Shown here: positions 43,964-56,088 of the stretch, piece by piece | Layout: each line of letters starts with the position of its first letter | How positions within the stretch are numbered: position 1 is the stretch's first letter | Assembly (NCBI RefSeq): GCF_000165485.1 | Contig: NC_014623.1 | Coordinates: 8,078,893 to 8,142,892, forward strand | From: Stigmatella aurantiaca DW4/3-1 | Lineage (GTDB): Bacteria > Myxococcota > Myxococcia > Myxococcales > Myxococcaceae | DNA: 64,000 bases | Reading direction: 5' to 3' | Notes under the pieces: generated by a model | What the model was told of the DNA's origin: nothing | The model's database searches: none | The model's input: only the letters and a program-made list of their open reading frames with translations | Translations under genes and position numbers: made by a program

Positions 43964-44869
43964 ATGTTCAAGGTACCGAAGCGAATCCAGCAGCAGACGG
44001 GGCGCTACGCGAAGGTGGACGGCATTCCCTACGAACTGCCCATCAACTCCCGGGCCTCGCCCGCCTTGATGGCGGCGTTCACCCTCGATGCACGCAAAGC
44101 CGCGGCATGGATGCCCGGCAACGAGGTGCACCCGCTGAGGCTGTGGGGCAACAAGGGCGTTCTGTTCATCACGGTCATCGACTACCGCGACACCGACATC
44201 GGCCCGTACATCGAGTTCAGCGTCGCCATCGCCTGCACCCACGGGCGGCGGCCCGCGCCCCCGCTCCTGCCCCTGCTGTTCCAACGCCACCATGGGCTGG
44301 GGCAGTACGTGGTGGATCTGCCTGTCAGCACGGAGATCTCCGTGAAGGGCGGCAAGGGCATCTGGGGCATGCCCAAACACCAGGCGAACCTGGACTTCCG
44401 CATCGATGGCAGCACGGTCAGCAGCCAGTATGACAAGGACGGGCAACTGGCGGTGCGCATCGAGATCGATCGGCCCCGGCGAACCTGGCTTCCCATCCGG
44501 GCCAGTGCCGCCAACTACTGCCAGTTCCGCGGGATGCTGATGAAGTCTTCCATCTATTTCCGGGGAAAGTTCGGCTTCTGCTTCGGCTCAAAGGCCTCGG
44601 CCCGGCTCACCCTGGGCTCTCACCCCCGCGTGCAGCCACTCAAGGACCTGGGCATCGCGTCCAAACCCTTCTTCACGGGCTTCCTTCCTTCATCGAGCGG
44701 TGTGCTGGACGACCACTTCGAGTCCTGGTTCCTCAGCTACCCGCAGCTGCCCGCGGGACAACCCGAGGGAATGGAGAGCGTCACCCGCCTCGGCCTGAGC
44801 CAGCAATGGCTGCCAGGCCCTCACCGAAGCGGGGATGGATCGGAGACAGGAACGGGAGCGCACTCATGA
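43964..44869 (+). CDS. Acetoacetate decarboxylase-like protein
   Basis: A 301-residue member of the acetoacetate decarboxylase superfamily, recognised by YIEFSVAIACTHG and the conserved KGIWGMPKHQANLDF, whose Lys138 aligns with the Schiff-base Lys region of the family. The superfamily includes decarboxylases and aldolase/dehydratases acting on 3-oxo acids; the reaction here is unknown. The last residues (GPHRSGDGSETGTGAHS) are low-complexity and the stop overlaps the next ATG (44866-44869). Lying between an alpha/beta hydrolase and a patatin/GMC pair, it probably handles a keto-lipid intermediate. Confidence 0.8.
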   Translation: MFKVPKRIQQQTGRYAKVDGIPYELPINSRASPALMAAFTLDARKAAAWMPGNEVHPLRLWGNKGVLFITVIDYRDTDIGPYIEFSVAIACTHGRRPAPPLLPLLFQRHHGLGQYVVDLPVSTEISVKGGKGIWGMPKHQANLDFRIDGSTVSSQYDKDGQLAVRIEIDRPRRTWLPIRASAANYCQFRGMLMKSSIYFRGKFGFCFGSKASARLTLGSHPRVQPLKDLGIASKPFFTGFLPSSSGVLDDHFESWFLSYPQLPAGQPEGMESVTRLGLSQQWLPGPHRSGDGSETGTGAHS

Positions 44870-45393
44870 AATCCCCTGTCCTGTCCACGCTCAATGCCTG
44901 CCTGCTGTTCCTGTGTGCCTCGATGTATCTGGGGACCGGCTGGTCGCTCGTGTTGTTCTCATTCCCCATCGCGCCCCAGCTCACGGTGGACAACTACTTT
45001 CTCCAGTTCGTTCCCCAGGTGAGCGCGGCCACCCGCTTTTTCACCTGGATGACGCTGGTGATGGGGGTCTCTTCCGCCGCCTTGTTCATCTCCGAGCGCC
45101 GGAGCCGGTTGCGCGCCTATCCCGCGCTGGTCTTCCTCGCCGTGGTGGCCGCCACCTTGCTCACCCGGATCTTCATCTTTCCCTACAACGCGGAGATGGC
45201 CTCGGGGATCCGGGATCCTCAGCGCCTCGGAGAGGTGCTCGCCGCGTGGATGGCCACCAACCGCGTCCGCGTGGGACTGTGGACCGTGCAGTGGCTGTCG
45301 ATGATGGGCTACTTCGCCCACAAGCTGCTGCGCGGGCACGCTTCGCTTCCCAAGAAAGCGGCCTTCCGGCCCTGGGTGGAGGTTCGGCCATGA
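44866..45393 (+). CDS. Small polytopic membrane protein
   Basis: A 175-residue integral membrane protein with four hydrophobic segments (LNACLLFLCASMYLGTGWSLVLF, FFTWMTLVMGVSSAALFIS, YPALVFLAVVAATLLTRIFIF, VGLWTVQWLSMMGYFAHKLL) and a loop reading MATNRVRVG. The N-R-x-R loop before the last helix recalls DUF1772-type proteins, a tentative match. It is locked in the operon by ATGA overlaps at both ends (44866 and 45390). The role may be membrane anchoring or transport for the lipid pathway. Confidence 0.75.
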   Translation: MKSPVLSTLNACLLFLCASMYLGTGWSLVLFSFPIAPQLTVDNYFLQFVPQVSAATRFFTWMTLVMGVSSAALFISERRSRLRAYPALVFLAVVAATLLTRIFIFPYNAEMASGIRDPQRLGEVLAAWMATNRVRVGLWTVQWLSMMGYFAHKLLRGHASLPKKAAFRPWVEVRP

Positions 45394-47426
45394 GCCAGCC
45401 CTCCGAGCGCGGACTCCACTGGGCCTTGAAGGCCGTTGGCGTCATCACGCTGATCGCCGGTGCCATGCAGCTCGTCGCCCCCGGTTTCGAGCTCAGACTC
45501 CTCGGGACCGAGCCCTCTCCCGCCAGCGTCCACTTCTTCGGCACCATCGGCATGTTCATGGTCCTCTTCGGCGGGCTGTTGCTCCATGTGCTGAAACGGC
45601 CCCACGAGAACCGGGACGCCTTCCTGTGGGTGGCCCTTCAGAAGCTCGGGGCGGCCTACGCCGTGGCCTGGGGCGTCACCCGGGACATCTTCTCGCCCAT
45701 CACGCTGGGGGTCGCGGGGTTCGATCTCCTCTCTGGGCTCTTGATCCTGGGCTACTTGCAGACGCTTCGCGAAGCCCAACGCCCAGTGGCCTCTGCCCTG
45801 CTCAAACCTGCCCCCAGGACACCGCCCCCTTCTCCAGAACCTCCCCCCGTGCGGCCCCTCGCTGCCCGTCCTCCTGGAGAGGCCCGGAGGCGGTCTCTCA
45901 TCCTCGCGGGCGGGGGCATGCGGGTGGCCTGGCAAGCGGGGGCGCTGCGCGCGCTCCACGAAGCGGGCATTCACTTTGCCCACGGGGATGGAACCTCGGG
46001 CGGAATCATGAACCTGGCGATGATGCTGTCGGGCCAGCTTCCCGAGGAGATGTGCGGCCGCTGGCGGACCTTGCGCATCCAGGACTTCGTCTCCTTCCGC
46101 TCTCCCGAGCAGTACCTGAAGGCCTGGGACATGGAAGCCCTGGGAGACGCCGATGGAATCGTCCGCCACGTCTTCCCCCATCTGGGCATCGACGTGGACG
46201 CCATCCGCGCCAACACGGCGATGGAGGGGAGCTTCAACGTCTGCGACTTCACGCGCAAGACGAACGAGGCCATCCCGCATGATCAGGTGGATCTGGACAT
46301 GCTCGTGGCGGGCATCTCGCTGCCCATCTTCATGCCGCCCGTCCGGAAAGCCGGCACGCTCTACCTGGACTCCGTTTGGATCCAGGATGCCAACCTGCTC
46401 GAAGCCGTGCGGCGAGGCGCGGATGAGCTCTGGGTGCTGTGGTGCATCGGCAACACGCCCACCTACCGGAAAGGCGTCTTTCCTCAGTACGTCCACATGA
46501 TTGAGCTGAGCGCCAACGGGGCCCTCTTCGCCCAGCTCGAGCGCATCCAGGAAATCAATGACCGCATCCGCGCGGGCGAGACGGTCCACGGTCACCAGCG
46601 GCCCATCGTGGTTCACCTCGTCAAACCCGCGCAGCCCCTGCCGCTGGATCCGGACCTCTACGCCGGACACATCACCGCGGACACCCTCATTGACCAGGGC
46701 TACGCGGACGCTTGCCGCTACCTCGAAACCTTCACACCGCGGGGCCTGCCCCTTTCTCCGGAGATCACCCAAATGAACGCATTCCTTCCCAGCCTCGCCT
46801 TCCGCGAGACGATGTCCGGCGCCTTCTCGCTCGGAGAGACCGAGCCCACCGCCGGTGCGGGCAAAGGCCGGTCCACCCCCTTCACCTTCCATGCGACGAT
46901 CAGCGTGGATGACATGGAGGCCTTCATCCAGAATCCGGAGCACGCCGCCCGGCTCGTGGCCCACATCTCCTTTCCACCGTTTGGCAAAGACATCCCCACC
47001 AAGCGGGGGAGCTTCAACCTCTTCAAGGCCAGTGATGACCCGAAGGCGCGGCTGATGACCTACGGCATGGCCTTCGAGCACCAAGGCCGCGAGTACTACC
47101 TGGCCGGCACCAAGACCATCCGTGATGACCGGGGCGCGGACCTGTGGCACGACACCACCCGGCTCTACTGCCGCCTGCATGAAGGGGGCGATGAGCGCGG
47201 CGCGGTGGTGGGGGCCGGCGTCCTCAAGCTGACGCTCGGCGAGCTGATCAAGCTCGTCTCCAGCATGCGCTCCTCCCTCGAGGGGAGCGAGGGGCGCCAG
47301 GCCGTGCTGCGCTTCGGCCAGTTCTTCCTGGGCACCCTCTGGGATGTGTATGCCCCCATGGCCCAGAAGGCCGACGGCATGGCGCGTGAAGCCAGTGCCA
47401 CTCGCGACGCCGGGACGCCTCCATGA
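45390..47426 (+). CDS. Membrane - patatin - lipid-enzyme linker three-domain fusion
   Basis: A 678-residue protein. Residues 10-125 form about four membrane segments. Residues 168-450 are a patatin-like lipase domain: oxyanion loop LAGGGMRVAWQAG, nucleophile elbow GTSGG (201-205, Ser203), and a catalytic-Asp region that reads LYLDSVWIQDAN (Asp327) instead of the usual DGG. Residues 469-600 form a third domain (FRETMSGAF ... SFNLFKASDDPKARLMTYGM ... DLWHDTTRLYCRLHEG) of the kind found between GMC oxidase and hydrolase modules in large actinobacterial fusions. It overlaps both neighbours by ATGA. Likely a lipid acyl hydrolase at the membrane. Confidence 0.85.
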   Translation: MSQPSERGLHWALKAVGVITLIAGAMQLVAPGFELRLLGTEPSPASVHFFGTIGMFMVLFGGLLLHVLKRPHENRDAFLWVALQKLGAAYAVAWGVTRDIFSPITLGVAGFDLLSGLLILGYLQTLREAQRPVASALLKPAPRTPPPSPEPPPVRPLAARPPGEARRRSLILAGGGMRVAWQAGALRALHEAGIHFAHGDGTSGGIMNLAMMLSGQLPEEMCGRWRTLRIQDFVSFRSPEQYLKAWDMEALGDADGIVRHVFPHLGIDVDAIRANTAMEGSFNVCDFTRKTNEAIPHDQVDLDMLVAGISLPIFMPPVRKAGTLYLDSVWIQDANLLEAVRRGADELWVLWCIGNTPTYRKGVFPQYVHMIELSANGALFAQLERIQEINDRIRAGETVHGHQRPIVVHLVKPAQPLPLDPDLYAGHITADTLIDQGYADACRYLETFTPRGLPLSPEITQMNAFLPSLAFRETMSGAFSLGETEPTAGAGKGRSTPFTFHATISVDDMEAFIQNPEHAARLVAHISFPPFGKDIPTKRGSFNLFKASDDPKARLMTYGMAFEHQGREYYLAGTKTIRDDRGADLWHDTTRLYCRLHEGGDERGAVVGAGVLKLTLGELIKLVSSMRSSLEGSEGRQAVLRFGQFFLGTLWDVYAPMAQKADGMAREASATRDAGTPP

Positions 47427-49183
47427 GGCAGGGACGAGAGCATTTCGACGTCATCATCGTCGGCTCCGGCTTCGGGGGCTCGGTGATGGCCTGGCGGCTT
47501 GCGGAGGCAGGGCTCCGCGTCTGCGTTCTGGAGCGTGGCAAGTCCTATCCCCCCGGCTCTTTCCCTCGCAGCCCCTATGGCATGCGCCGCAACTTCTGGG
47601 ATCCGAGCGAGGGGCTTCACGGGCTCTTCAACCTCTGGTCCTTCCGGGGGCTCGGTGGGGTGGTGGCCAGCGGCCTGGGAGGGGGCTCGCTCATCTATGC
47701 CAACGTGCTGCTGCGCAAGGACGAGAAGACCTTCGTCCATGAGAACCCGCGCGACGGCGGCTACGAGGACTGGCCCGTCAGCCGCGCGGATCTGGAGCCC
47801 CACTACGACGCCGTGGAGAAGATGCTCGGGGCGCAGCGCTACCCGTTCCAGGAAGAGCCCTATCGTCACACCGCGAAGACGATCGCGATGAAGCTGGCCG
47901 CCGAGCGCATGGGCCTCCAGGACGACTGGCAACTCCCGCCGTTGGCGGTCACCTTCGCCAACCCCGGCCAGAAGCCTGTCCCCGGGGAGCCCATCCCGGA
48001 GCGGTACCCCAACCTGCACGGGCGCACCCGCATGACGTGCCGGCTGTGCGGGGAGTGCGACATCGGCTGTAACTACGGCAGCAAGAACACGCTCGATTAC
48101 AACTATCTGTCGGCCGCGAAGCGGCTGGGGGCGGAGCTGCGCGTCCGTTGCGAGGTGAAGTCCTTCTGGCGCGAGGGCTCGGAGTACACCGTCGAATACC
48201 TGGACCACTCCGAGGCCCGCGAGGGCGAGCGCCCCGAGGTGCCCACCTCGATGCTGCCGCGAACGGTCATCTCGGCGGACAAGCTCGTCCTGGCCGCGGG
48301 GACGTTCGGAACCACCTACCTGCTGCTCAAGAACCAGCAAGCCTTCCCTGGGCTCAGCCCCCGGCTCGGCACCCAGTTCTGCGGCAACGGTGACCTGCTG
48401 GGCTTTCTCTCCAAGTGCACGGACCAGCGCCAAGGCCGGCGGGAGCCCCGGGTGCTCGACGGGGGCCATGGTCCCGTCATCACCAGTGCCCTCCACATCC
48501 GGGACGCGACGGAGGGGGGCACCGGCCGCGGCTATTACGTGGAGGACGCGGGCTATCCGGAGTTCGTCAACTGGCTCTACGAGGGGAGTGACCAGTTCGC
48601 CTTGCTCAAGCGTTTCGCGCGGCTGAGCCAAAAAATCGTGAAGGGCTGGTTGGGTTTGAGCCGGGACACGGACGTGAGCGCGGAGATCGCCGAAGTGCTC
48701 GGGGACTGCGTGGGCTCCGCCAGCTCCTTGCCCCTGCTCGCCATGGGGAGGGACCTGCCCACTGGCCGGATGTCGCTCAACCGGGATGGCCTGCTCGAAG
48801 TCGATTGGCGCATGCGCGACTCGTCCCAGTATTTCCAGCGCGTCCGTCAGACCATGGCGCAGATCGCGGACGTGCTGGAGGGGACGCTGATCCAGAACCC
48901 GCTCAGCTACCTGAGCCGCGTCATCACCGTGCACCCCCTGGGAGGATGCCCCATGGGCCGCACCCTGCGGGAAGGCGTGGTGGATTCCCACGGAGAGGTC
49001 TTCAACCACCCCGGACTCTATGTGGCCGATGGCGCGGTGATGCCCGGGCCGACCGGCCCCAATCCCAGCCTGACCATCGCCGCCTTCGCCGACCGCTCCG
49101 CGGACCACCTAATCGATCACTTCCACCGTCCCCCTCTCTCCACCCCCGCCCAGGAGGTGCCATGGGCTCCTCGACCGATGTGA
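47423..49183 (+). CDS. GMC oxidoreductase, cholesterol-oxidase (ChoD)-like
   Basis: A 586-residue FAD enzyme. The dinucleotide motif is DVIIVGSGFGGSVMAWRLAEAG near the N-terminus, followed by LGGVVASGLGGGSLIYANVLL and CRLCGECDIGCNYGSKNTLDYNYL. The C-terminal active-site stretch is VHPLGGCPMG, then GLYVADGAVMPGPTGPNPSLTIAAFADR. These match ChoD-like GMC enzymes that oxidise sterols or similar alcohols; whether the substrate is cholesterol is unknown. There is no Tat or Sec signal, so it is cytoplasmic or membrane-associated via its operon partners. It overlaps the patatin fusion by ATGA and the next gene by 22 bp. Confidence 0.9.
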   Translation: MRQGREHFDVIIVGSGFGGSVMAWRLAEAGLRVCVLERGKSYPPGSFPRSPYGMRRNFWDPSEGLHGLFNLWSFRGLGGVVASGLGGGSLIYANVLLRKDEKTFVHENPRDGGYEDWPVSRADLEPHYDAVEKMLGAQRYPFQEEPYRHTAKTIAMKLAAERMGLQDDWQLPPLAVTFANPGQKPVPGEPIPERYPNLHGRTRMTCRLCGECDIGCNYGSKNTLDYNYLSAAKRLGAELRVRCEVKSFWREGSEYTVEYLDHSEAREGERPEVPTSMLPRTVISADKLVLAAGTFGTTYLLLKNQQAFPGLSPRLGTQFCGNGDLLGFLSKCTDQRQGRREPRVLDGGHGPVITSALHIRDATEGGTGRGYYVEDAGYPEFVNWLYEGSDQFALLKRFARLSQKIVKGWLGLSRDTDVSAEIAEVLGDCVGSASSLPLLAMGRDLPTGRMSLNRDGLLEVDWRMRDSSQYFQRVRQTMAQIADVLEGTLIQNPLSYLSRVITVHPLGGCPMGRTLREGVVDSHGEVFNHPGLYVADGAVMPGPTGPNPSLTIAAFADRSADHLIDHFHRPPLSTPAQEVPWAPRPM

Positions 49184-50877
49184 TGGCCCTCTCCGCCGGG
49201 GCGCCGGCGCCTCGTCCCAAGCGCCCACCGGGCCACCGGATGGTGTCCTGGCTCGACCCCCTCATCCTCGCGAAGACAGGCGTGCGAGCCGTCATCTCCG
49301 CCACCATTGGAAAGCAGGCCGATCGGCGGCTGCTCGACGCGCTGGCCGCGCCCAAGGTCGAGCCCTGTGATTTCTCCGTCGATGCGGCAGGCCTCCCCCG
49401 GCGAGAACTCTGGCTCGACTACGTGTCGGACCTGGGAGATGGCTGGGACTCGACCTATGCCGTCGCCCTCGCGGTGTCTCAGCCCACGCTGATACTCCGG
49501 GACGAGACTGGAGCGGCCCACGAGACCCAGGGCGGCGAGGTGCTCGTGTTCGGCGGAGACGAGGTGTACCCGGCGGCGAGCGTGAAGGCCTACGAGGAGA
49601 AGACTGTCCAGCCCTGGAGCTCGGCGATGCGTGGGCAGCGTCCGCCGGCCCACCTGTTCGCGGTTCCGGGAAACCACGATTGGTATGACGGGCTCGTCTC
49701 CTTCATGCGGCTGTTCTGCCAGGGCCGCAGTCTGGCGGGCTGGCAGACCCACCAGCACCGCAGTTACTTCGCCGTGAAGCTGCCCCAAGGGTGGTGGTTG
49801 CTCGGCACGGACATGCAGCTCGAGTCCGACATCGACCAGCCCCAGGTCTGCTACTTCCAGGAGATCGCCAAGCAGATCGGGGACAAGGACCGCATCATCC
49901 TCTGCCTCGCGGAGCCCGCCTGGCTGGGAGCCCAGGTCCACGCCTCCATGGGAAGGTCCTATCTGGAAAACAACCTCGACTTTCTCGAGGACCAGGTGCT
50001 TGGAAAGAAAATCAGTGTCTTTCTCGCGGGAGATCTTCACCACTACCGGCGCCACGCCAATGACGAGGGGCGGCAGAAGATCACCGCCGGCGGAGGGGGC
50101 GCCTTTTTGCACCCCACCCACCTGCCCCGGCGGCACCCGCCTGCCCTGGAAGACTTTACCGTCCGCAAGAGCTTCCCCAGCGCCGAGGAATCCCGGAGGC
50201 TGAGCTGGCGCAACCTCTGGCTCGTGAGCCACAACCCGCGGTTTGGAATCCTCATGGGCCTCATCTACACGCTGCTGGCCTGGGCGCTCGCGGTGAACAT
50301 CGGCACCGCCCGCCTCCCGAACGCGCTGGAAAACGTGATGGCCATGGCCCTCTCCACTCCGGGCAGCGCGCTGGTCTGTCTTGCCATCATCCTGGGCCTG
50401 ATCGCCTTCGCGGACCGCAGCTTCGGGCGCGGGCGCTGGCTCGTGGGGCTCGTGCACAGCCTCGCGCACCTGGGCGCGGCGTTCCTGATTGCCTGGGGCG
50501 CGTCTCACCTCGTGGACAGGCTCCTGGACGTCCCCTTCCGGAGTCCGCAGCGAGACCTCCTGAGTGCCGTGCTCATCTTCGCGGGGGGCTTCCTGGCGGG
50601 CCCGTCGATCATGGGGCTCTACCTGCTCCTGTCCCTCAATGTCTTCGGTGCCCATGCGAACGAGGCCTTCTCGTCCCTGGCCATTCCAGACTGGAAGAAC
50701 TTCCTTCGGCTGCACATCGCTCCGGATGGACGGTTGTGGATCTACCCCGTCGGCATCCGGCGGGTCCCCCGCGCCTGGAAACCCGGAGAGACGGTCCGTG
50801 AGCCCGAGTGGGTGGCGGATCCTCGGGATCAAAAGGCCACGCCCCCTGCCCTGATCGAACCACCGATCGTCGTCTGA
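49162..50877 (+). CDS. Membrane-anchored calcineurin-like metallophosphoesterase
   Basis: A 571-residue protein. The phosphoesterase domain has DYVSDLGDGWDST, VLVFGGDEVYP, VPGNHDWYDG (169-177) and, near residue 290, LAGDLHHYRRH, giving the metal ligands of calcineurin-like enzymes with GDL-H instead of GHxH. The C-terminal part contains about four or five transmembrane segments (LIYTLLAWALAVNIG, ALVCLAIILGLIAF, LGAAFLIAWGASHLV, LIFAGGFLAGPSIMGLYLLLSLNVFG). AGGAGG lies before the ATG, inside the end of the GMC gene. It closes the lipid-oxidation operon and may dephosphorylate a lipid headgroup or prenyl phosphate. Confidence 0.85.
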   Translation: MGSSTDVMALSAGAPAPRPKRPPGHRMVSWLDPLILAKTGVRAVISATIGKQADRRLLDALAAPKVEPCDFSVDAAGLPRRELWLDYVSDLGDGWDSTYAVALAVSQPTLILRDETGAAHETQGGEVLVFGGDEVYPAASVKAYEEKTVQPWSSAMRGQRPPAHLFAVPGNHDWYDGLVSFMRLFCQGRSLAGWQTHQHRSYFAVKLPQGWWLLGTDMQLESDIDQPQVCYFQEIAKQIGDKDRIILCLAEPAWLGAQVHASMGRSYLENNLDFLEDQVLGKKISVFLAGDLHHYRRHANDEGRQKITAGGGGAFLHPTHLPRRHPPALEDFTVRKSFPSAEESRRLSWRNLWLVSHNPRFGILMGLIYTLLAWALAVNIGTARLPNALENVMAMALSTPGSALVCLAIILGLIAFADRSFGRGRWLVGLVHSLAHLGAAFLIAWGASHLVDRLLDVPFRSPQRDLLSAVLIFAGGFLAGPSIMGLYLLLSLNVFGAHANEAFSSLAIPDWKNFLRLHIAPDGRLWIYPVGIRRVPRAWKPGETVREPEWVADPRDQKATPPALIEPPIVV

Positions 50878-50948: not shown

Positions 50949-52259
50949 GTGAAGCAGGGGAACATCCTGGCGCTGGGGGTACTGCTGCTCCTTGCCCCCA
51001 TGGCATGGACACAGGAGGAAACAGGAGTCCCCGCGCCATCCGAAGCGGCCTCCGCCCAGGCGCTGGCGGTGTACGAGCAAGGCAAACGCCTCTACGACGC
51101 GAAAGACTACGCGGGGGCCCTGGAGCGGTTCGATCAGGCCGCGGCGCTGGAGCCCGGCAAGGCGCGCTGGCAGTACAACCGGGGCCTGGCCCTGCGAAAG
51201 CTCAACCGCTTCGAGGAAGCCCGGACCGCCTTGCTTCAGTCCCGGACCCTTGATCCCGCCTACAAGCAGGCGGAGATCGACGATAAGCTGCGGGAGATGG
51301 GCTTCTCGGACGAGCCTGTCCAAGAGACCGGACGCGCTTCCTCGCCCAAGGGCTTCCAGGCCCTGGGGCCCCTCCTCTGCGGCGTCGGTCCCTTCGTCGG
51401 CGCCATGGCCGTGCTGTACTGGATGTTCAGGAGAAGCGCCTCCCGGAAGCGGCGGGATCCGGCCCGCTCTTCCCGGCCCCCTTCCTCTTCACCCGTGCCC
51501 CGGCCAGAGGAACTCCGGCTGCTGAACACGCGGCTGGAGCAACTCTCCAGCTCACTCGTCCAGGTGGAGCATGCCCTTCGGCTCGAGGAGGACGCCGACC
51601 TGAGGGCGCTGCTCAACCAGGCCACCCTGGCCGAGCAGCGCAGCCGGGACGCTTTGGACCGTGCCCGGCAAGGGCAGCTTCCACTGGACGCAGCCGCTGG
51701 ACAGCTCCGGGCGGCCCAGGACAGCGCGGAGGCCGCGCTGAAACGGGCTCAGAGTCTCTTCGGAGAGCGGGCCTTTCAACCCGAGGGAGCGCGCGTGGGC
51801 TGCTACTTCTGCGCACGCCCGCTGGCCAATCCGGCCTTCCGGATGCTGGTTCCCCTCAAGCGGGGCGCGGACGTCACGAAGGTCCTCGCGTGCCCTCCAT
51901 GCGCGAACATGGCTTCCGCGGGCCAGCCGCCACCCGTGAAGGTCCGGCAGCTGCGGAACGGGCAGACCCAGCACTGGAGCGAGCTGGACGGGTATGATCC
52001 CTATCTCCACCGTCACAAGCCCTATCCGGAGATGGGCACGGTGCCCTCCTGGGAGTACGCCCCGCAGCGCTCCCTGGGCGAGGTGGCGGCCATGGCCGCG
52101 GGCGGGGCCCTGGCAACGGGACTGGCGGCCTATGGCATGAGCAAGCTGCTGGACCTCGACACCGCGAGTGAGGCGGCGGCGGCCCAGGCGGCGACCCAGG
52201 CTTCGGCGGCGCGGGCCAGTGAGCGCCGCGAGGAGCGAGACTGGAGGGACCACTCCTGA
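50949..52259 (+). CDS. TPR - coiled coil - zinc-ribbon membrane protein
   Basis: A 436-residue protein of unknown family. In order: a signal or anchor segment (ILALGVLLLLAPMAW), two TPR-like repeats (ALAVYEQGKRLYDAKDYAGALERFDQAAALEPG then NRGLALRKLNRFEEARTALLQ), and a transmembrane helix (LGPLLCGVGPFVGAMAVLYWMF). A Glu/Leu/Arg-rich coiled coil of about 80 residues and a zinc-ribbon-like knuckle pair CYFC ... CPPC follow, then an Ala-rich tail. A GTG at 50949 with GAGGGAG upstream gives this start. Its stop shares a base with the glycosyltransferase start (TGATG), linking it to the radical SAM/GT operon, perhaps as scaffold. Confidence 0.72.
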   Translation: MKQGNILALGVLLLLAPMAWTQEETGVPAPSEAASAQALAVYEQGKRLYDAKDYAGALERFDQAAALEPGKARWQYNRGLALRKLNRFEEARTALLQSRTLDPAYKQAEIDDKLREMGFSDEPVQETGRASSPKGFQALGPLLCGVGPFVGAMAVLYWMFRRSASRKRRDPARSSRPPSSSPVPRPEELRLLNTRLEQLSSSLVQVEHALRLEEDADLRALLNQATLAEQRSRDALDRARQGQLPLDAAAGQLRAAQDSAEAALKRAQSLFGERAFQPEGARVGCYFCARPLANPAFRMLVPLKRGADVTKVLACPPCANMASAGQPPPVKVRQLRNGQTQHWSELDGYDPYLHRHKPYPEMGTVPSWEYAPQRSLGEVAAMAAGGALATGLAAYGMSKLLDLDTASEAAAAQAATQASAARASERREERDWRDHS

Positions 52260-53347
52260 TGGGCGCGCCTCGCTTCGTCTTCTATGCCGTCAACGGCCTG
52301 GGGCTGGGGCACGTTACGCGCCTGGTATCCATCGCCCGGGCGCTGCGCCGACTCTCCCCCGGGTGCGAGGTGCTCTTCCTGACCTCGTCCGAGGCGGACC
52401 ATGTCATCTACCGTGAGGGCTTCGCGGCGGTGAAGCTGCCTTCGAAGACCATCCGCGAGCACTGCGGCCTGCGCAAGGGCAGCTACCTCAAGCTGGCGCA
52501 GACGGTGACGTGGAACACGATCTCCGCGTTCGATCCGGACGTGCTGGTGGTGGACACCTACCCCACGGGCTCCTTCGAGGAGCTCCTCCCCGTGCTCCGC
52601 TGGCGCCAGAAGAACGTCTTCGTCTTCCGGGAGCAGCGGGCCGAGGCGGCGGGCTCGCAACTGCTCCAGGCCACCCTGAGGCTGTATGACCGGATCCTCA
52701 TCCCGCATGAGAGCGTGTCCCAGGTAGGGCCGGTGCCCGAGCCCACCAAGGCCCTGGCCGTGGGGCCCATCCTCATCCGCGAGCGCCACGAGTTGCCCAC
52801 CCGGGCCCAGGCGCGCAAGGCCCTCGGGCTCCCGGAGGAGGGAACGCTGCTCTACGCCTCCTTCGGCGGCGGTGGCGATCCCGAGGCGGCCCGCGCCTTG
52901 ACCCTCACGGCACAGGTGGCGCGGGAGCTGCCCGGCGTCCGGCTGGTGGTGGGCGCGGGCCCGCTGTGGCGCGAGCCGCCGCCCACCTTGGAGGGAGCGG
53001 TGGTGCTTCAGGGCCGCTACCCCGCCTTGGACTTCCTGCCCGCCTTCGACGCGGCGGTGACGGCGGCTGGTTACAACGCCGTCCATGAGCTGCTCTACGC
53101 GGGCATCCCCTCCGTCTTCGTCCCCTTCGAGCGGATGGTGGATGACCAGGAGAAACGGGCTCGGGAGGTGACGGCGGCGGGGGCGGGACTCGACTGCACG
53201 CCGTTGACCCGAGAGGGGCTCACCCGGGCGGTCCGGGAAATCCTGAACCCGGACGTGCGCCAGCGCCTGAGCGCGGCAGCCCGGAAGAAGGTGGAGCGCA
53301 ATGGCGCGGAGCCCGCGGCCCGGGCCCTGCTGGAGCTGCTCGCATGA
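52259..53347 (+). CDS. MurG-like (GT-B) glycosyltransferase
   Basis: A 362-residue GT-B fold protein. The N-terminus FVFYAVNGLGLGHVTRLVSIARALRR carries the Gly-rich loop and His of the UGT/MurG group. The C-terminal half has LLYASFGGGGDPEAA and the nucleotide-sugar region VVLQGRYPALDFLPAFDAAVTAAGYNAVHELLYAGIPSVFVPF, ending in a KRA helix. It would add a sugar to an unknown acceptor. It overlaps the TPR gene by one base upstream and the radical SAM gene by ATGA (53344-53347). Confidence 0.87.
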   Translation: MGAPRFVFYAVNGLGLGHVTRLVSIARALRRLSPGCEVLFLTSSEADHVIYREGFAAVKLPSKTIREHCGLRKGSYLKLAQTVTWNTISAFDPDVLVVDTYPTGSFEELLPVLRWRQKNVFVFREQRAEAAGSQLLQATLRLYDRILIPHESVSQVGPVPEPTKALAVGPILIRERHELPTRAQARKALGLPEEGTLLYASFGGGGDPEAARALTLTAQVARELPGVRLVVGAGPLWREPPPTLEGAVVLQGRYPALDFLPAFDAAVTAAGYNAVHELLYAGIPSVFVPFERMVDDQEKRAREVTAAGAGLDCTPLTREGLTRAVREILNPDVRQRLSAAARKKVERNGAEPAARALLELLA

Positions 53348-54384
53348 AGAATCCGGACGCGACGAAAGAGCGCCTGAAGGGCTACCTGGAGCGCCGGCCA
53401 CGCACCGGGCCCGAGACCGTCCACCTGGATGTCACCAACGCGTGCAACCTCGACTGCATCACCTGCTGGAACTACGCACCGGACCTGGCCCAGCCGAAAC
53501 CAGTGTCCTGGAAGCGGCAGCGGATGGACGCAGCCACCTTCCACCGCATGGTGGACGAGTCCGCCGAAGCGGGGGCCGAGCGCATCGTCATCAGCGGCGG
53601 CGGCGAACCCTTCACCCACCCGGACATCTATTCCTTCATCGCCAAGGTCAAGGCGCGAGGCCTGCGGCTCACCGTCATCTCCAACGGGACGCTGTGTGAC
53701 TGGGAGCGAGTCCGGGAGCTCCAGGTGGACCAGCTCCTGCTCAACATGGCCTCCGCCTCCCCGGAGACCTACGTCGCCTACCATCCCAACCAGCCACCGG
53801 AGACCTTCCACCGGCTGCTGGAGGGCGTCCAGCAGGTGCGGGAGGTCACGGCCGTGAACCTCGTGCAGGTCATCAACCAGGTGAACTACCTGGAGCTGCC
53901 CGCCATGGTGCAACTCGCGCACCGCGTGGGGGCACGGTCTTCCTTCAAGGTGGGGGATGTGCCCCGGGGCACCGAGCACCACGCGCTCACCGCCGCGCAG
54001 CGGCAGCACGTCCTCGAAGCGCTCATCCCCGCGGCGCGCAAGCAGGCCAAGGCGCTGAAGGTGAAGCACAACCTGGACGCGTACGAGGCGCAGCTCTCGG
54101 GACGGTGGCCCTCGGGGCAGGAGACCGGTTGTTTCGCGGGCTACCTCTACAGCCGCGTCTACGTGGACGGACGCGTCTTCTTCTGCTGTGAGCACATCGA
54201 GGCCGGGCACGTGAACGACGGGCCCTTCCAGGAGGTGTGGCGCGCCCCAGCATACGAGGCGGTGCGCCAGCGGCTCCACCGCGGCGAGTACTACCCAGGC
54301 TGCGCGCGCTGCGGGAAGCACGACATGAACTTCGCGGCGGCCCGGGACTTGCGCGAAATGCTCGAGGCGGGAGATCTCCCATGA
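53344..54384 (+). CDS. Radical SAM protein with SPASM-like C-terminus
   Basis: A 346-residue radical SAM enzyme. The cluster motif CNLDCITC (Cys34, Cys38, Cys41) sits in HLDVTNACNLDCITCWNYAP, followed by the SAM-binding ISGGGEP. The C-terminal part has Cys residues in TGCFAGYL, FFCCEHIEAG and YPGCARCGKHD, consistent with an auxiliary iron-sulfur domain of SPASM/twitch type. Relatives modify peptides or small molecules. No candidate peptide substrate is encoded next to it. It overlaps its neighbours by ATGA on both sides. Confidence 0.9.
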   Translation: MKNPDATKERLKGYLERRPRTGPETVHLDVTNACNLDCITCWNYAPDLAQPKPVSWKRQRMDAATFHRMVDESAEAGAERIVISGGGEPFTHPDIYSFIAKVKARGLRLTVISNGTLCDWERVRELQVDQLLLNMASASPETYVAYHPNQPPETFHRLLEGVQQVREVTAVNLVQVINQVNYLELPAMVQLAHRVGARSSFKVGDVPRGTEHHALTAAQRQHVLEALIPAARKQAKALKVKHNLDAYEAQLSGRWPSGQETGCFAGYLYSRVYVDGRVFFCCEHIEAGHVNDGPFQEVWRAPAYEAVRQRLHRGEYYPGCARCGKHDMNFAAARDLREMLEAGDLP

Positions 54385-55253
54385 GCGGTCCGCGTCCCAC
54401 GGTGAGCTGGAACATCGTTGGCGGGTGCAACTACCGCTGCACCTACTGCGTGCAGAAGCACATGCCGGGCATCGGCGGCCCCACGGACGAACAGCTCGAG
54501 GCGGCGCTCACCACGCTGACCGCCTTGCCCGGAAGCTGGGAGTTCAAGATCTCCGGCGGAGAGCCCTTTCTGCTCAAGCGGCTGCCGGAAGTGGCGAAGC
54601 GGCTCGCCACGGCGGGGCACAAGGTCTCGTTGCTCACCAACCTCTCCGCCCCCCTGCGCGTCCTCGCCACCTTCATCGAGGCAGCGGGGGAACAGCTGCG
54701 CACCTTCTCCTGCTCGCTGCACCGCGAGGAGGTGGAGGAAGCGGCGTTCCTCGAGAAAGCCCAGGCCGTGCAAGCGCTGTTGGCGCGGTGGCCCCGCGCA
54801 ACCTTTGTCGTCAACAGCGTGGTGGTCCCCGGCCAAGTGTCCGCGGTCTCCAGCAGCCGCGAGCGCTTCGAGGAGGCGGGCATCAAGTTCTACCCACAGC
54901 TCATGCGGGTGGACGGAAAACCGGCGGAGTACGGGTGGGCGGACCGCTGGCGCATCGACAGGGCCTTCGGGGACATGGTGTCCCCCTCCCAGATGAACCG
55001 CGGCTACCCGCTCAAGGGCTACCGGTGCCACGCGGGCAGCAAGTACTTCATCATTCACCCCAAGGGGGACGCCTTCTCGTGCTACCCCGGCAAGCGCTTC
55101 GGGGATGGCCACCTGGGCAACGTCTTCGACGGCACGCTGAAGCTGTGGGAGGCACCCGCCCCATGCCGCTACGAGGTGTGCCCCTGCACGGTGCCGCAGA
55201 ACCGGGGCATCATCGAAGGATTCGGCCAGGGCGCCGGGGAAGATTCGCCCTAA
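54381..55253 (+). CDS. Second radical SAM protein
   Basis: A 290-residue radical SAM enzyme distinct from its neighbour: CNYRCTYC (Cys16, Cys20, Cys23) after VSWNIVGG, SAM motif FKISGGEPF, and a C-terminal Cys-rich end (YRCHAGSKYFIIHPKGDAFSCYPGKRFGDGHLGNVFDG then CRYEVCPC) typical of SPASM-like domains. The ATG at 54381 overlaps the previous stop, so the 48 upstream codons are rejected. Two unlike radical SAM enzymes in succession suggest two separate steps on one molecule. Confidence 0.88.
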   Translation: MSGPRPTVSWNIVGGCNYRCTYCVQKHMPGIGGPTDEQLEAALTTLTALPGSWEFKISGGEPFLLKRLPEVAKRLATAGHKVSLLTNLSAPLRVLATFIEAAGEQLRTFSCSLHREEVEEAAFLEKAQAVQALLARWPRATFVVNSVVVPGQVSAVSSSRERFEEAGIKFYPQLMRVDGKPAEYGWADRWRIDRAFGDMVSPSQMNRGYPLKGYRCHAGSKYFIIHPKGDAFSCYPGKRFGDGHLGNVFDGTLKLWEAPAPCRYEVCPCTVPQNRGIIEGFGQGAGEDSP

Positions 55254-55263
55254 ATTGACGGTG

Positions 55264-56088
55264 ATGACGCGCAAGCAGCCCCCGCCGCTCTCCATCATCA
55301 TTCCCTGGTGCAGGCGCCCTGAACTCGACGTCACCCTGAGACGCAACCGCCGCTTCTTCACCGCGCACCCGTTCGAGGTGCTGGTGGTGAACTGCGGGGG
55401 CAGCGTCCGGACGTTCCGGAAGCTGCTGAGGGCCCATCGCTTCCCGGGGCTGCGCGGCCTGGAAATGCGGGACACCTCCTTCAACAAGTCCCTGGCGCTG
55501 AACGCCGGCGCTTCCGCGGCCCGGGCCAATTGCTTCCTCTTCCTCGATGCGGACGTGGTGCTGCGGGGTGACTTCCTGGAAGGAGCCCTGGCCAAGCTGG
55601 GCACGAAGCACTTCGTCACCGTGGATCGGCTCTTCGAGTCGCACCCCGCCGCCCGGCGCCGCTCCCGCCTGCGCGAGCTGGCCTACCTCATGCGCTTCGT
55701 GGACCGGAAGGGCCGCGCCGCGCAGGTGGAGACCCAGCGCGTGAACCTGAGCGACGGCAGCCACGGCGGGCCCGGCCTCGTGATGCTGCGGCGCAAGCAC
55801 TTCGAAGAAGTGAATGGGATGAACTCGAACCTGAGGGGCTGGGGTTGGGAGGACATGGACCTGCTGGTCCGGTTGCAGCTCGCGCTGGGACTGTCGCAGC
55901 GGCGCCATGGCGAGGCGGTGCACCTCACCCACGGCGATGACCAGCGTGACCTCGGAGGCATCCACAAGAAAGCCAGCGAGCTGCTTAACCTCTTCCGCTG
56001 CCTGGAGAACTACCGCGAAGGCTATTACTGGGGCACCCGCGACGCCGACGTCGAGACGTGGCAAGGGCGCTTCTCGTGGTACGAGTAG
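55264..56088 (+). CDS. GT2 glycosyltransferase with galactosyltransferase-type C-terminus
   Basis: A 274-residue GT-A enzyme: LSIIIPWCRRPELDVTLRRN, metal-binding DxD in LFLDADVVLRGDFL, and GMNSNLRGWGWEDMDLLVRLQLALG, the W-G-W-E-D segment of chondroitin/beta-4-galactosyltransferase-like proteins. It has no membrane segment. Starts TTG 55255, GTG 55261 and ATG 55264 are all in frame; I chose the ATG. It begins within 11 bp of the second radical SAM gene and ends the operon, with no further same-strand gene for 96 bp. Confidence 0.85.
   Translation: MTRKQPPPLSIIIPWCRRPELDVTLRRNRRFFTAHPFEVLVVNCGGSVRTFRKLLRAHRFPGLRGLEMRDTSFNKSLALNAGASAARANCFLFLDADVVLRGDFLEGALAKLGTKHFVTVDRLFESHPAARRRSRLRELAYLMRFVDRKGRAAQVETQRVNLSDGSHGGPGLVMLRRKHFEEVNGMNSNLRGWGWEDMDLLVRLQLALGLSQRRHGEAVHLTHGDDQRDLGGIHKKASELLNLFRCLENYREGYYWGTRDADVETWQGRFSWYE

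Follow-up and report, generated by a model that had tools for sequence, protein, structure and literature searches.

What do a glycosyltransferase and two radical S-adenosylmethionine (SAM) enzymes act on when they are encoded together in one operon? This question is raised by five genes at 50949-56088 of a 64,000-nucleotide stretch of the Stigmatella aurantiaca DW4/3-1 genome (the window, at 8.08-8.14 Mb of a genome that is a single contig of 10,260,756 bases). Our answer, which may well be right but is tentative, is that the operon would be a dedicated system for modifying a protein tail: the glycosyltransferase g2 would glycosylate the C-terminal Ser of the first gene's product, g1, and the radical SAM enzymes g3 and g4 would tailor it.

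All five open reading frames of the original prediction are present, as are its TGATG junction and its two ATGA overlaps, and all of the genes are on the forward strand. g1 (50949..52259) has a GTG start at 50949 and encodes 436 amino acids (aa) with a TPR part, a long hydrophobic helix, a coiled coil, and a four-Cys site; it is the proposed substrate or carrier. Its TGA stop (52257-52259) overlaps the ATG of g2 at 52259. g2 (52259..53347) encodes a GT28 (MurG/UGT-like) glycosyltransferase, which is the core enzyme. g3 (53344..54384) encodes radical SAM A (rSAM-A) and g4 (54381..55253) radical SAM B (rSAM-B); the ATGA overlaps are at 53344-53347 (g2/g3) and 54381-54384 (g3/g4). The stop of g4 is at 55251-55253, and g5 (55255..56088), an accessory GT2 glycosyltransferase, could begin at TTG 55255, GTG 55261, or ATG 55264. 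The small gap between g4 and g5, given earlier as 11 bp, is present, but it is 10 bases if ATG 55264 is the start. A promoter scan found none. Pfam identifies only TPR in g1, GT28/UGT-type domains in g2, Radical_SAM in g3 and g4, and GT2 in g5. No NCBIfam cut-off was reached by any of the five, among the matches listed (for g3 the best 25 of 50, and for g4 the best 25 of 26).

Is this a conserved unit? Among 195 genomes of the phylum, we found relatives of g4 in 18 (E 1e-10), of g3 in 19 (E 1e-25), and of both in 17. An orthologue of g1 precedes g2 in 12 of the 18 larger loci that we fetched. (One contig, G071, begins inside g2, and in G010 a g1-like gene precedes GT28 on another contig than rSAM-A.) The order g1-g2-g3-g4 is the same in other genera and the flanking genes differ between genera, so the four genes have been kept together while their surroundings changed. 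g5 was present in just 2 of the 18 larger loci and in 3 of 8 loci of a separate test (G095-G097): it is an add-on of close relatives and not a core member. Thus, the conserved unit is four genes, g1-g4, and not the five that had been proposed. With g5 set aside, the original prediction of an undescribed, co-conserved operon was borne out, and its worry that the set might not be conserved was not. A literature search of open-licence PMC papers found no description of the cassette, which is weak evidence of absence, and the system is not described in excerpts of PMC7159879.

The cassette also extends well beyond the phylum. A single search of bacterial and archaeal genomes, made with the rSAM-A alignment, yielded 70 loci, 67 of them titled as metagenome-assembled genomes; five of the 70 (L121, L122, L126-L128) resemble remote radical SAM proteins. 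By their depositors' labels, the remaining loci are from Myxococcota, Betaproteobacteria, Acidobacteria, Cyanobacteria, Planctomycetota, Spirochaetes, Anaerolineae, and Ozemobacteraceae, among other groups. Type I loci have the arrangement g1-GT28-A-B and are mostly from Myxococcaceae and Betaproteobacteria. In type II, which accounts for most other loci, the first gene encodes a coiled-coil protein of ~430 aa that is unrelated to g1; after it come a GT28 that has an additional part at its C-terminus, A, a pair of B genes, and lastly a signal-anchored protein that carries the DLDRDDKWDEKW-like domain once or twice, and often there is a ~115-aa gene in front. Among the 20 type II loci whose sequence continues for 7 kb past the coiled-coil gene, two B genes were called in 20/20, the last gene was recognized by its motif in 19/20, and the small front gene was seen in 8/20. 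Of the two type II B proteins, the first is the one nearer to the window's B (median 213 bits, n=33; for the second, 157.5, n=30). None of eight type II proteins had a Pfam match over the cut-off (GT28 nearly did, at 19.9 of 22), and when a type II cassette was compared with NCBIfam, its radical SAM and GT28 proteins stayed below the cut-offs and the other three genes tested had no match at all.

The window's g1 ends in DWRDHS (52239..52256), and its last Ser, the proposed modification site, is invariant. Counting distinct proteins, the terminal residue is Ser in 38/38 coiled-coil proteins and 19/19 g1 proteins, against a background of 54/732 for the other genes of these loci that encode 100 aa or more, of which 7/732 have D/E-x-S ends. 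With loci added later, the count is 67/67 gene-1-type proteins. (The Fisher value for the Ser tail, 2e-64, overstates independence because the sequences are related.) The simple gene caller missed rSAM-A in 8 of the 70 loci; without these badly called loci, the background is 47/657, and it is 18/191 for cassette enzymes. Twelve loci were left out of the tail counts: ten duplicate regions counted elsewhere, and in L052 and L073 the "g1" match was a TPR match in a different 891-aa protein that ends in Arg. Twenty loci gave no gene-1 match, several of them contigs that end before that gene. Also, L115 has a partial protein, L175 and L176 have identical ends, and in L077 and L117 the coiled-coil gene lies away from GT28.

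The two families that share this Ser have no detectable homology: hhalign gives a probability of 0.4% for g1 against the coiled-coil family and 100% for their GT28 partners. Within the coiled-coil family, the median pairwise identity is 25%, and no positions but the final Ser and one Trp are the same in 38/38 rows. In the g1 family, the last three positions are D, H (Q once), and S. In the sole coiled-coil protein that we modelled (L103), the last 28 residues (407-434) have a predicted local distance difference test (pLDDT) score <50, so that the modelled tail is probably disordered; a fold search with the coiled-coil protein gave no significant match (best E 0.054).

A ribosome-binding site for the next gene could have caused the conserved tail, and we rejected this for the Ser on account of codon use and distant cases. 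In the coiled-coil genes the Ser codon is AGC in 6/38 and TCN in 32/38. The Ser is also kept where g2 is estimated to begin at least 25 bases later (8/37 coiled-coil and 2/18 g1 genes), and in L117 it is kept with another gene between the coiled-coil gene and g2. Therefore, neither gene overlap nor a ribosome site explains the Ser. GGAGGG within the W-R-D codons could serve g2 as a ribosome site, and the W/R part of the window's tail could be explained in this way.

Natural variants of the cassette indicate which enzyme the Ser belongs with. The GT28 profile matched 68 of the 195 genomes at E 1e-20: 21 strongly (E <1e-130, including G010, G189, and G192), and 47 of the 68 as weaker relatives (E 2e-38 to 3e-21). 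G192 has a coiled-coil protein that ends in RISS, with GT28 directly after it, and G189 has one that ends in PPES, followed by GT28 and an adjoining divergent radical SAM gene; neither genome has an A or B orthologue. G276 has the tail KDRS beside GT28 and no A or B at E 1e-20. As the Ser persists in these three genomes without orthologues of the radical enzymes, it goes with GT28. (In G010, which has no B orthologue, the 603-aa g1-like protein ends in ADRS.) Eight genomes were reached through the loci, including G195, and seven of them have GT28. In the phylum of G195, GT28 loci occur in 9/347 genomes, and for these we set a prediction beforehand. The gene in front of GT28 ends in Ser in 8/9 loci, one of which (G265) is the already counted L125. 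For the second half of the prediction, which allowed D, E, Y, or F at position -3, the residue is D/E in 7/7 loci with rSAM-A in the genome; rSAM-A is beside GT28 in six of these and on another contig in G195.

Are the enzymes of a suitable kind? (Our motif counts include only proteins called at a plausible length.) The sequence of g2 falls within GT28/GT-B: among 46 proteins, NGxGxGHxxR is present in 41, the nucleotide-sugar Glu in 45 by a loose pattern, and a third pattern in 44, two of the three patterns being loose. E277, D295, and Q297 are invariant in 13 aligned rows, and the conserved residues presumably have the roles that they have in MurG. The C-terminal nucleotide-sugar domain of g2 matches both MurG and UGT chains. 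Nevertheless, g2 is not a MurG (TIGR01133, 44.3 of 250.25 bits), and no peptidoglycan gene was recognized beside it.

The two radical SAM proteins match Radical_SAM with 62.9 bits for g3 and 45.4 for g4 (Pfam cut-off 29.5). Pfam's SPASM model gives 37.1 bits for g3, over its cut-off of 21.5, and 19.6 for g4, below it; the SPASM motif C-x2-C-x5-C-x3-C after the radical SAM domain was found in 0/51 rSAM-A and 0/73 rSAM-B proteins, and neither is classed as a SPASM maturase. Instead, rSAM-A has CxxxCxxC and auxiliary Cys spaced as in BtrN in 51/51 proteins (C263, C281/282, C320, and C323 in g3), and rSAM-B has CxxxCxxC in 73/73 and its own variant of the auxiliary Cys in 71/73 (C216, C234, C262, C267, and C269 in g4). 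As judged from these Cys, the auxiliary domains of both are twitch-like. A twitch domain is a truncated SPASM domain with one auxiliary cluster, and BtrN, the twitch dehydrogenase of butirosin synthesis, oxidizes a cyclitol and has one auxiliary cluster (according to excerpts of PMC9012708). The auxiliary-cluster Cys of rSAM-A align with those of BtrN (4m7s), but similarity over the full chain is weak (core 5.7 bits) and the operon is another one. Among solved structures, the rSAM-A core is best matched by PqqE (E 4e-10), which acts on a peptide, and then by cytosylglucuronate decarboxylase, with BtrN matching in the auxiliary domain; for rSAM-B, a viperin-like enzyme comes out closest (E 1e-7). 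From such similarities alone one could not tell whether the radical enzymes act on a sugar or on a peptide.

As the original prediction expected of an undescribed system, both proteins lie outside the characterised NCBIfam subfamilies, and no NCBIfam family claims either: the best match of g3 is W_rSAM_matur (98.8 of 380 bits) and that of g4 is STM4011 (49.1 of 200). rSAM-B most resembles STM4011 and prokaryotic viperin, but it reaches 49.1 of 200 and 41.0 of 180 bits, and its partners are different. We also considered and rejected a defence system, as PADLOC's viperin models do match g3 and g4 (E ~1e-13). Both are far below the NCBIfam cut-off for prokaryotic viperin (48.0 for g3 and 41.0 for g4, of 180 bits), and a shared radical SAM core is the likely reason for the matches. 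g4 is not a His-Xaa-Ser protein either (HxsC, 17.3 of 267.9 bits).

In an AlphaFold2 (AF2) model of g1, the TPR part (residues 32-116, 51042..51296) has block means of at least 92; Pfam and Foldseek also point to TPR, and the 50 best Foldseek matches of the g1 model are mostly TPR proteins, none with E <0.001. A long helix at residues 140-167 (51366..51449) in the model is hydrophobic as read from the sequence, has basic residues after it, and is likely transmembrane, so the expectation of a protein in front with a likely membrane helix holds. We infer that the four-Cys site (C285, C288, C315, and C318, 51801..51902), which is invariant in 19/19 rows, binds zinc. Near the end of the modelled chain, a helix extends to residue 433, and the last block has pLDDT 56. 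As for paralogues of g1, the same genome offers four partial matches, all weak (E 2e-6 to 7.5e-4) and confined to residues 25-182. The original prediction saw a membrane scaffold-like protein and no visible peptide precursor. The likely membrane helix agrees with the first of these; however, g1 itself is the best candidate substrate, because the last residue is fixed in two gene-1 families without detectable homology, so being a membrane scaffold is probably not its whole role and the second claim is not supported.

The conservation of the tail suggests that it is the substrate of the cassette's enzymes, and we infer that GT28 glycosylates, or at least recognizes, the terminal Ser. We propose the following scheme, in which the order of steps and the radical reaction are conjectural. 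g1 would be a carrier, probably membrane-bound, that offers its extreme C-terminus, DWRDHS-COOH, to the operon's own enzymes. g2 would move a sugar from a nucleotide-sugar donor onto the C-terminal Ser, and the twitch-type enzymes g3 and g4 would next tailor the sugar or residues near the Ser, such as the Asp at -3. g5 may add a further sugar in the window's lineage. In other phyla, the same enzymes (one A and two B) would act on a coiled-coil protein that is unrelated to g1 but has a tail of this kind. The broader claim is of a widespread bacterial system in which a dedicated protein, from either of two independent carrier families, receives a sugar on its C-terminal Ser that is remodelled by radical chemistry; this is possible but on balance doubtful. 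We would say the same, with similar reserve, of the claim that such C-terminal protein modification is of a kind not described in the sources searched.

A precedent is mycofactocin, in which, in excerpts of PMC3023750, an extremely well conserved C-terminal motif goes with a radical SAM protein and a glycosyltransferase (MftA, MftC, and MftF). In contrast to mycofactocin, gene 1 here encodes ~400-600 aa, and the constant partner is GT28 rather than GT2. Also, g3 and g5 do not belong to the mycofactocin families (46.3 of 265 bits for TIGR03962 and 23.9 of 280 for TIGR03965).

Several observations weigh against the modification of the Ser. In G509, the neighbour of GT28 (E 4.4e-121) is an unrelated 894-aa protein that ends in Lys, and there is no A or B at E 1e-20. 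(This protein is at L174:9786-12470; fragments with similar N-termini follow, by impression an Rhs/intein-like array.) Two readable regions around weaker GT28 relatives, of three fetched, have upstream proteins ending in Pro and Lys, so the Ser rule holds for the cassette GT28 and not for the wider family. G196 (L100) has rSAM-A but no GT28 at E 1e-20. Position -3 varies among the 67 tails (D 51, Y 8, E 4, F 2, I 1, P 1), and G276, which has no radical enzymes, retains Asp; the -3 Asp therefore does not simply follow them. (That it would follow them fits G192 and G189 and is weakened by G276.) With the modelled helix of g1 reaching residue 433, only ~3 terminal residues are clearly free. The radical enzymes lack the Cys motif that excerpts of PMC3023750 link with peptide modification, and our literature searches of open-licence PMC papers found no case of a C-terminal Ser as a glycan acceptor. 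Finally, the tail could be fixed for binding rather than for modification.

Of the rivals, the most economical has the enzymes make a glycan and the tail serve as a docking site. Here, as the original prediction supposed, g2, g5, and the radical enzymes would produce a glycan, either free or lipid-linked, and a scaffold role would fall to g1 or the coiled-coil protein, whose tail would only dock the enzymes. GT28 is nearest to MurG and UGTs, g5 and a GT-A-like pair in G189/G192 point to glycan building, the auxiliary domain of rSAM-A is like that of BtrN, which acts on a cyclitol, and distant relatives of GT28, like one lone rSAM-B homologue, are located in polysaccharide-type clusters. But a glycan product alone leaves the invariant terminal Ser on two unrelated proteins unexplained, and we noticed no recurring flippase or polymerase in the cassette (the flanks were not annotated systematically). 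We regard this explanation as unlikely, though it deserves to be kept in mind.

A second alternative is a RiPP-like crosslink (as in ribosomally synthesized and post-translationally modified peptides), in which the radical enzymes would do what is seen in triceptides, linking the aromatic or acidic residue close to the C-terminus with a neighbour (i, i+2), and glycosylation would be secondary. In the available excerpts of PMC11002830, the triceptide link runs from Trp or Tyr to the C-beta of Asp, and the window's W-R-D and the Y-S-D and F-R-D of relatives resemble triceptide motifs. Both triceptides and FxSxx-COOH systems have a C-terminal motif on a variable protein with an adjoining radical SAM gene (excerpts of PMC11002830 and PMC7159879), and the window's tail is W/Y-x-D-like. 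Also, the rSAM-A core matches PqqE best, and an aromatic residue or His stands one or two places before an acidic residue in 16/19 g1 tails. However, this pattern is present in just 14/38 coiled-coil tails and so is not kept in most of them. Triceptide maturation (3-CyFE) starts from a short precursor with an aromatic-x-X3 core; the cassette has no short precursor, gene 1 is full-length, the SPASM motif is absent (0/51 and 0/73), and the constant partner is GT28. The terminal Ser persists where the radical enzymes are gone, and the W-R part of the tail may also act as the g2 ribosome site. A crosslink thus seems quite improbable to us.

Terminal residues are often recognized without being modified, so the tail could be a recognition element only (for degradation, localisation, or an assembly partner) and be unrelated to the enzymes. 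In that case the Ser would need to have arisen in two proteins that are unrelated but have the same operon enzymes in common, and other genes of the loci mostly lack a terminal Ser (54/732), so we give this explanation, too, a small chance. That the real substrate is a separately encoded small peptide far from the operon is very improbable. In its favour, precursors are not always encoded near their maturases, although they usually are (excerpts of PMC3023750). Against it, the operon has no space for a peptide gene, and gene 1 already provides a conserved tail (no search for unlinked peptides was made). A precursor hidden inside the operon was rejected for the same lack of space and because the flanks are not conserved between genera; a neighbouring peptide that is conserved is also unlikely, given that the window's flanking genes turned up in none but the closest genomes.

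Some further features of these loci are worth recording. Directly upstream of g1, at 44835-50877 of the window, three overlapping genes run in the same direction, and their order is the same in G095. They include a GMC oxidoreductase (cholesterol oxidase model, below cut-off) and a weak metallophosphoesterase with a membrane part; the first of the three we take to be patatin-like from its appearance. The signal-anchored family with the Asp-rich DLDRDDKWDEKW-like domain, in one or two copies (L148:6902-7711; in type II, for example, L103:10899-11420), has no Pfam match over the cut-off and occurs in 2/195 genomes of the phylum, both with type II cassettes. We considered this last type II gene, with its DRDDKWDEKW domain, as a second substrate, but its Trp ends a domain that can be duplicated inside the protein and not a tail. 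Pairs of ~325-aa GT-A-like genes lie near the coiled-coil and GT28 genes of G189/G192 (L143:4029-5992 and L144:12042-14005, with DCDVLF read from sequence); three of these four proteins were tested against Pfam, with no match. A lone rSAM-B homologue (L056:4006-4959) and the distant GT28 relatives of L146 and L149 are in polysaccharide-type clusters of one myxobacterial family. In one type I cassette, a Bro-N domain gene (L066:6374-7222) sits between GT28 and rSAM-A, and in G011, rSAM-B1 is divided over two reading frames (L053:9678-10536), by a broken gene or an assembly error.

What was a vague cluster of radical SAM and glycosyltransferase genes thus becomes testable: it now has a candidate substrate and a specific residue, Ser436 of g1. 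Nature also provides variants that have the radical enzymes and others that lack them, and two unrelated kinds of carrier are spread over several phyla. If the Ser is indeed modified, then the cassette would carry out a dedicated C-terminal protein modification, and uncharacterised radical SAM subfamilies would gain a substrate.

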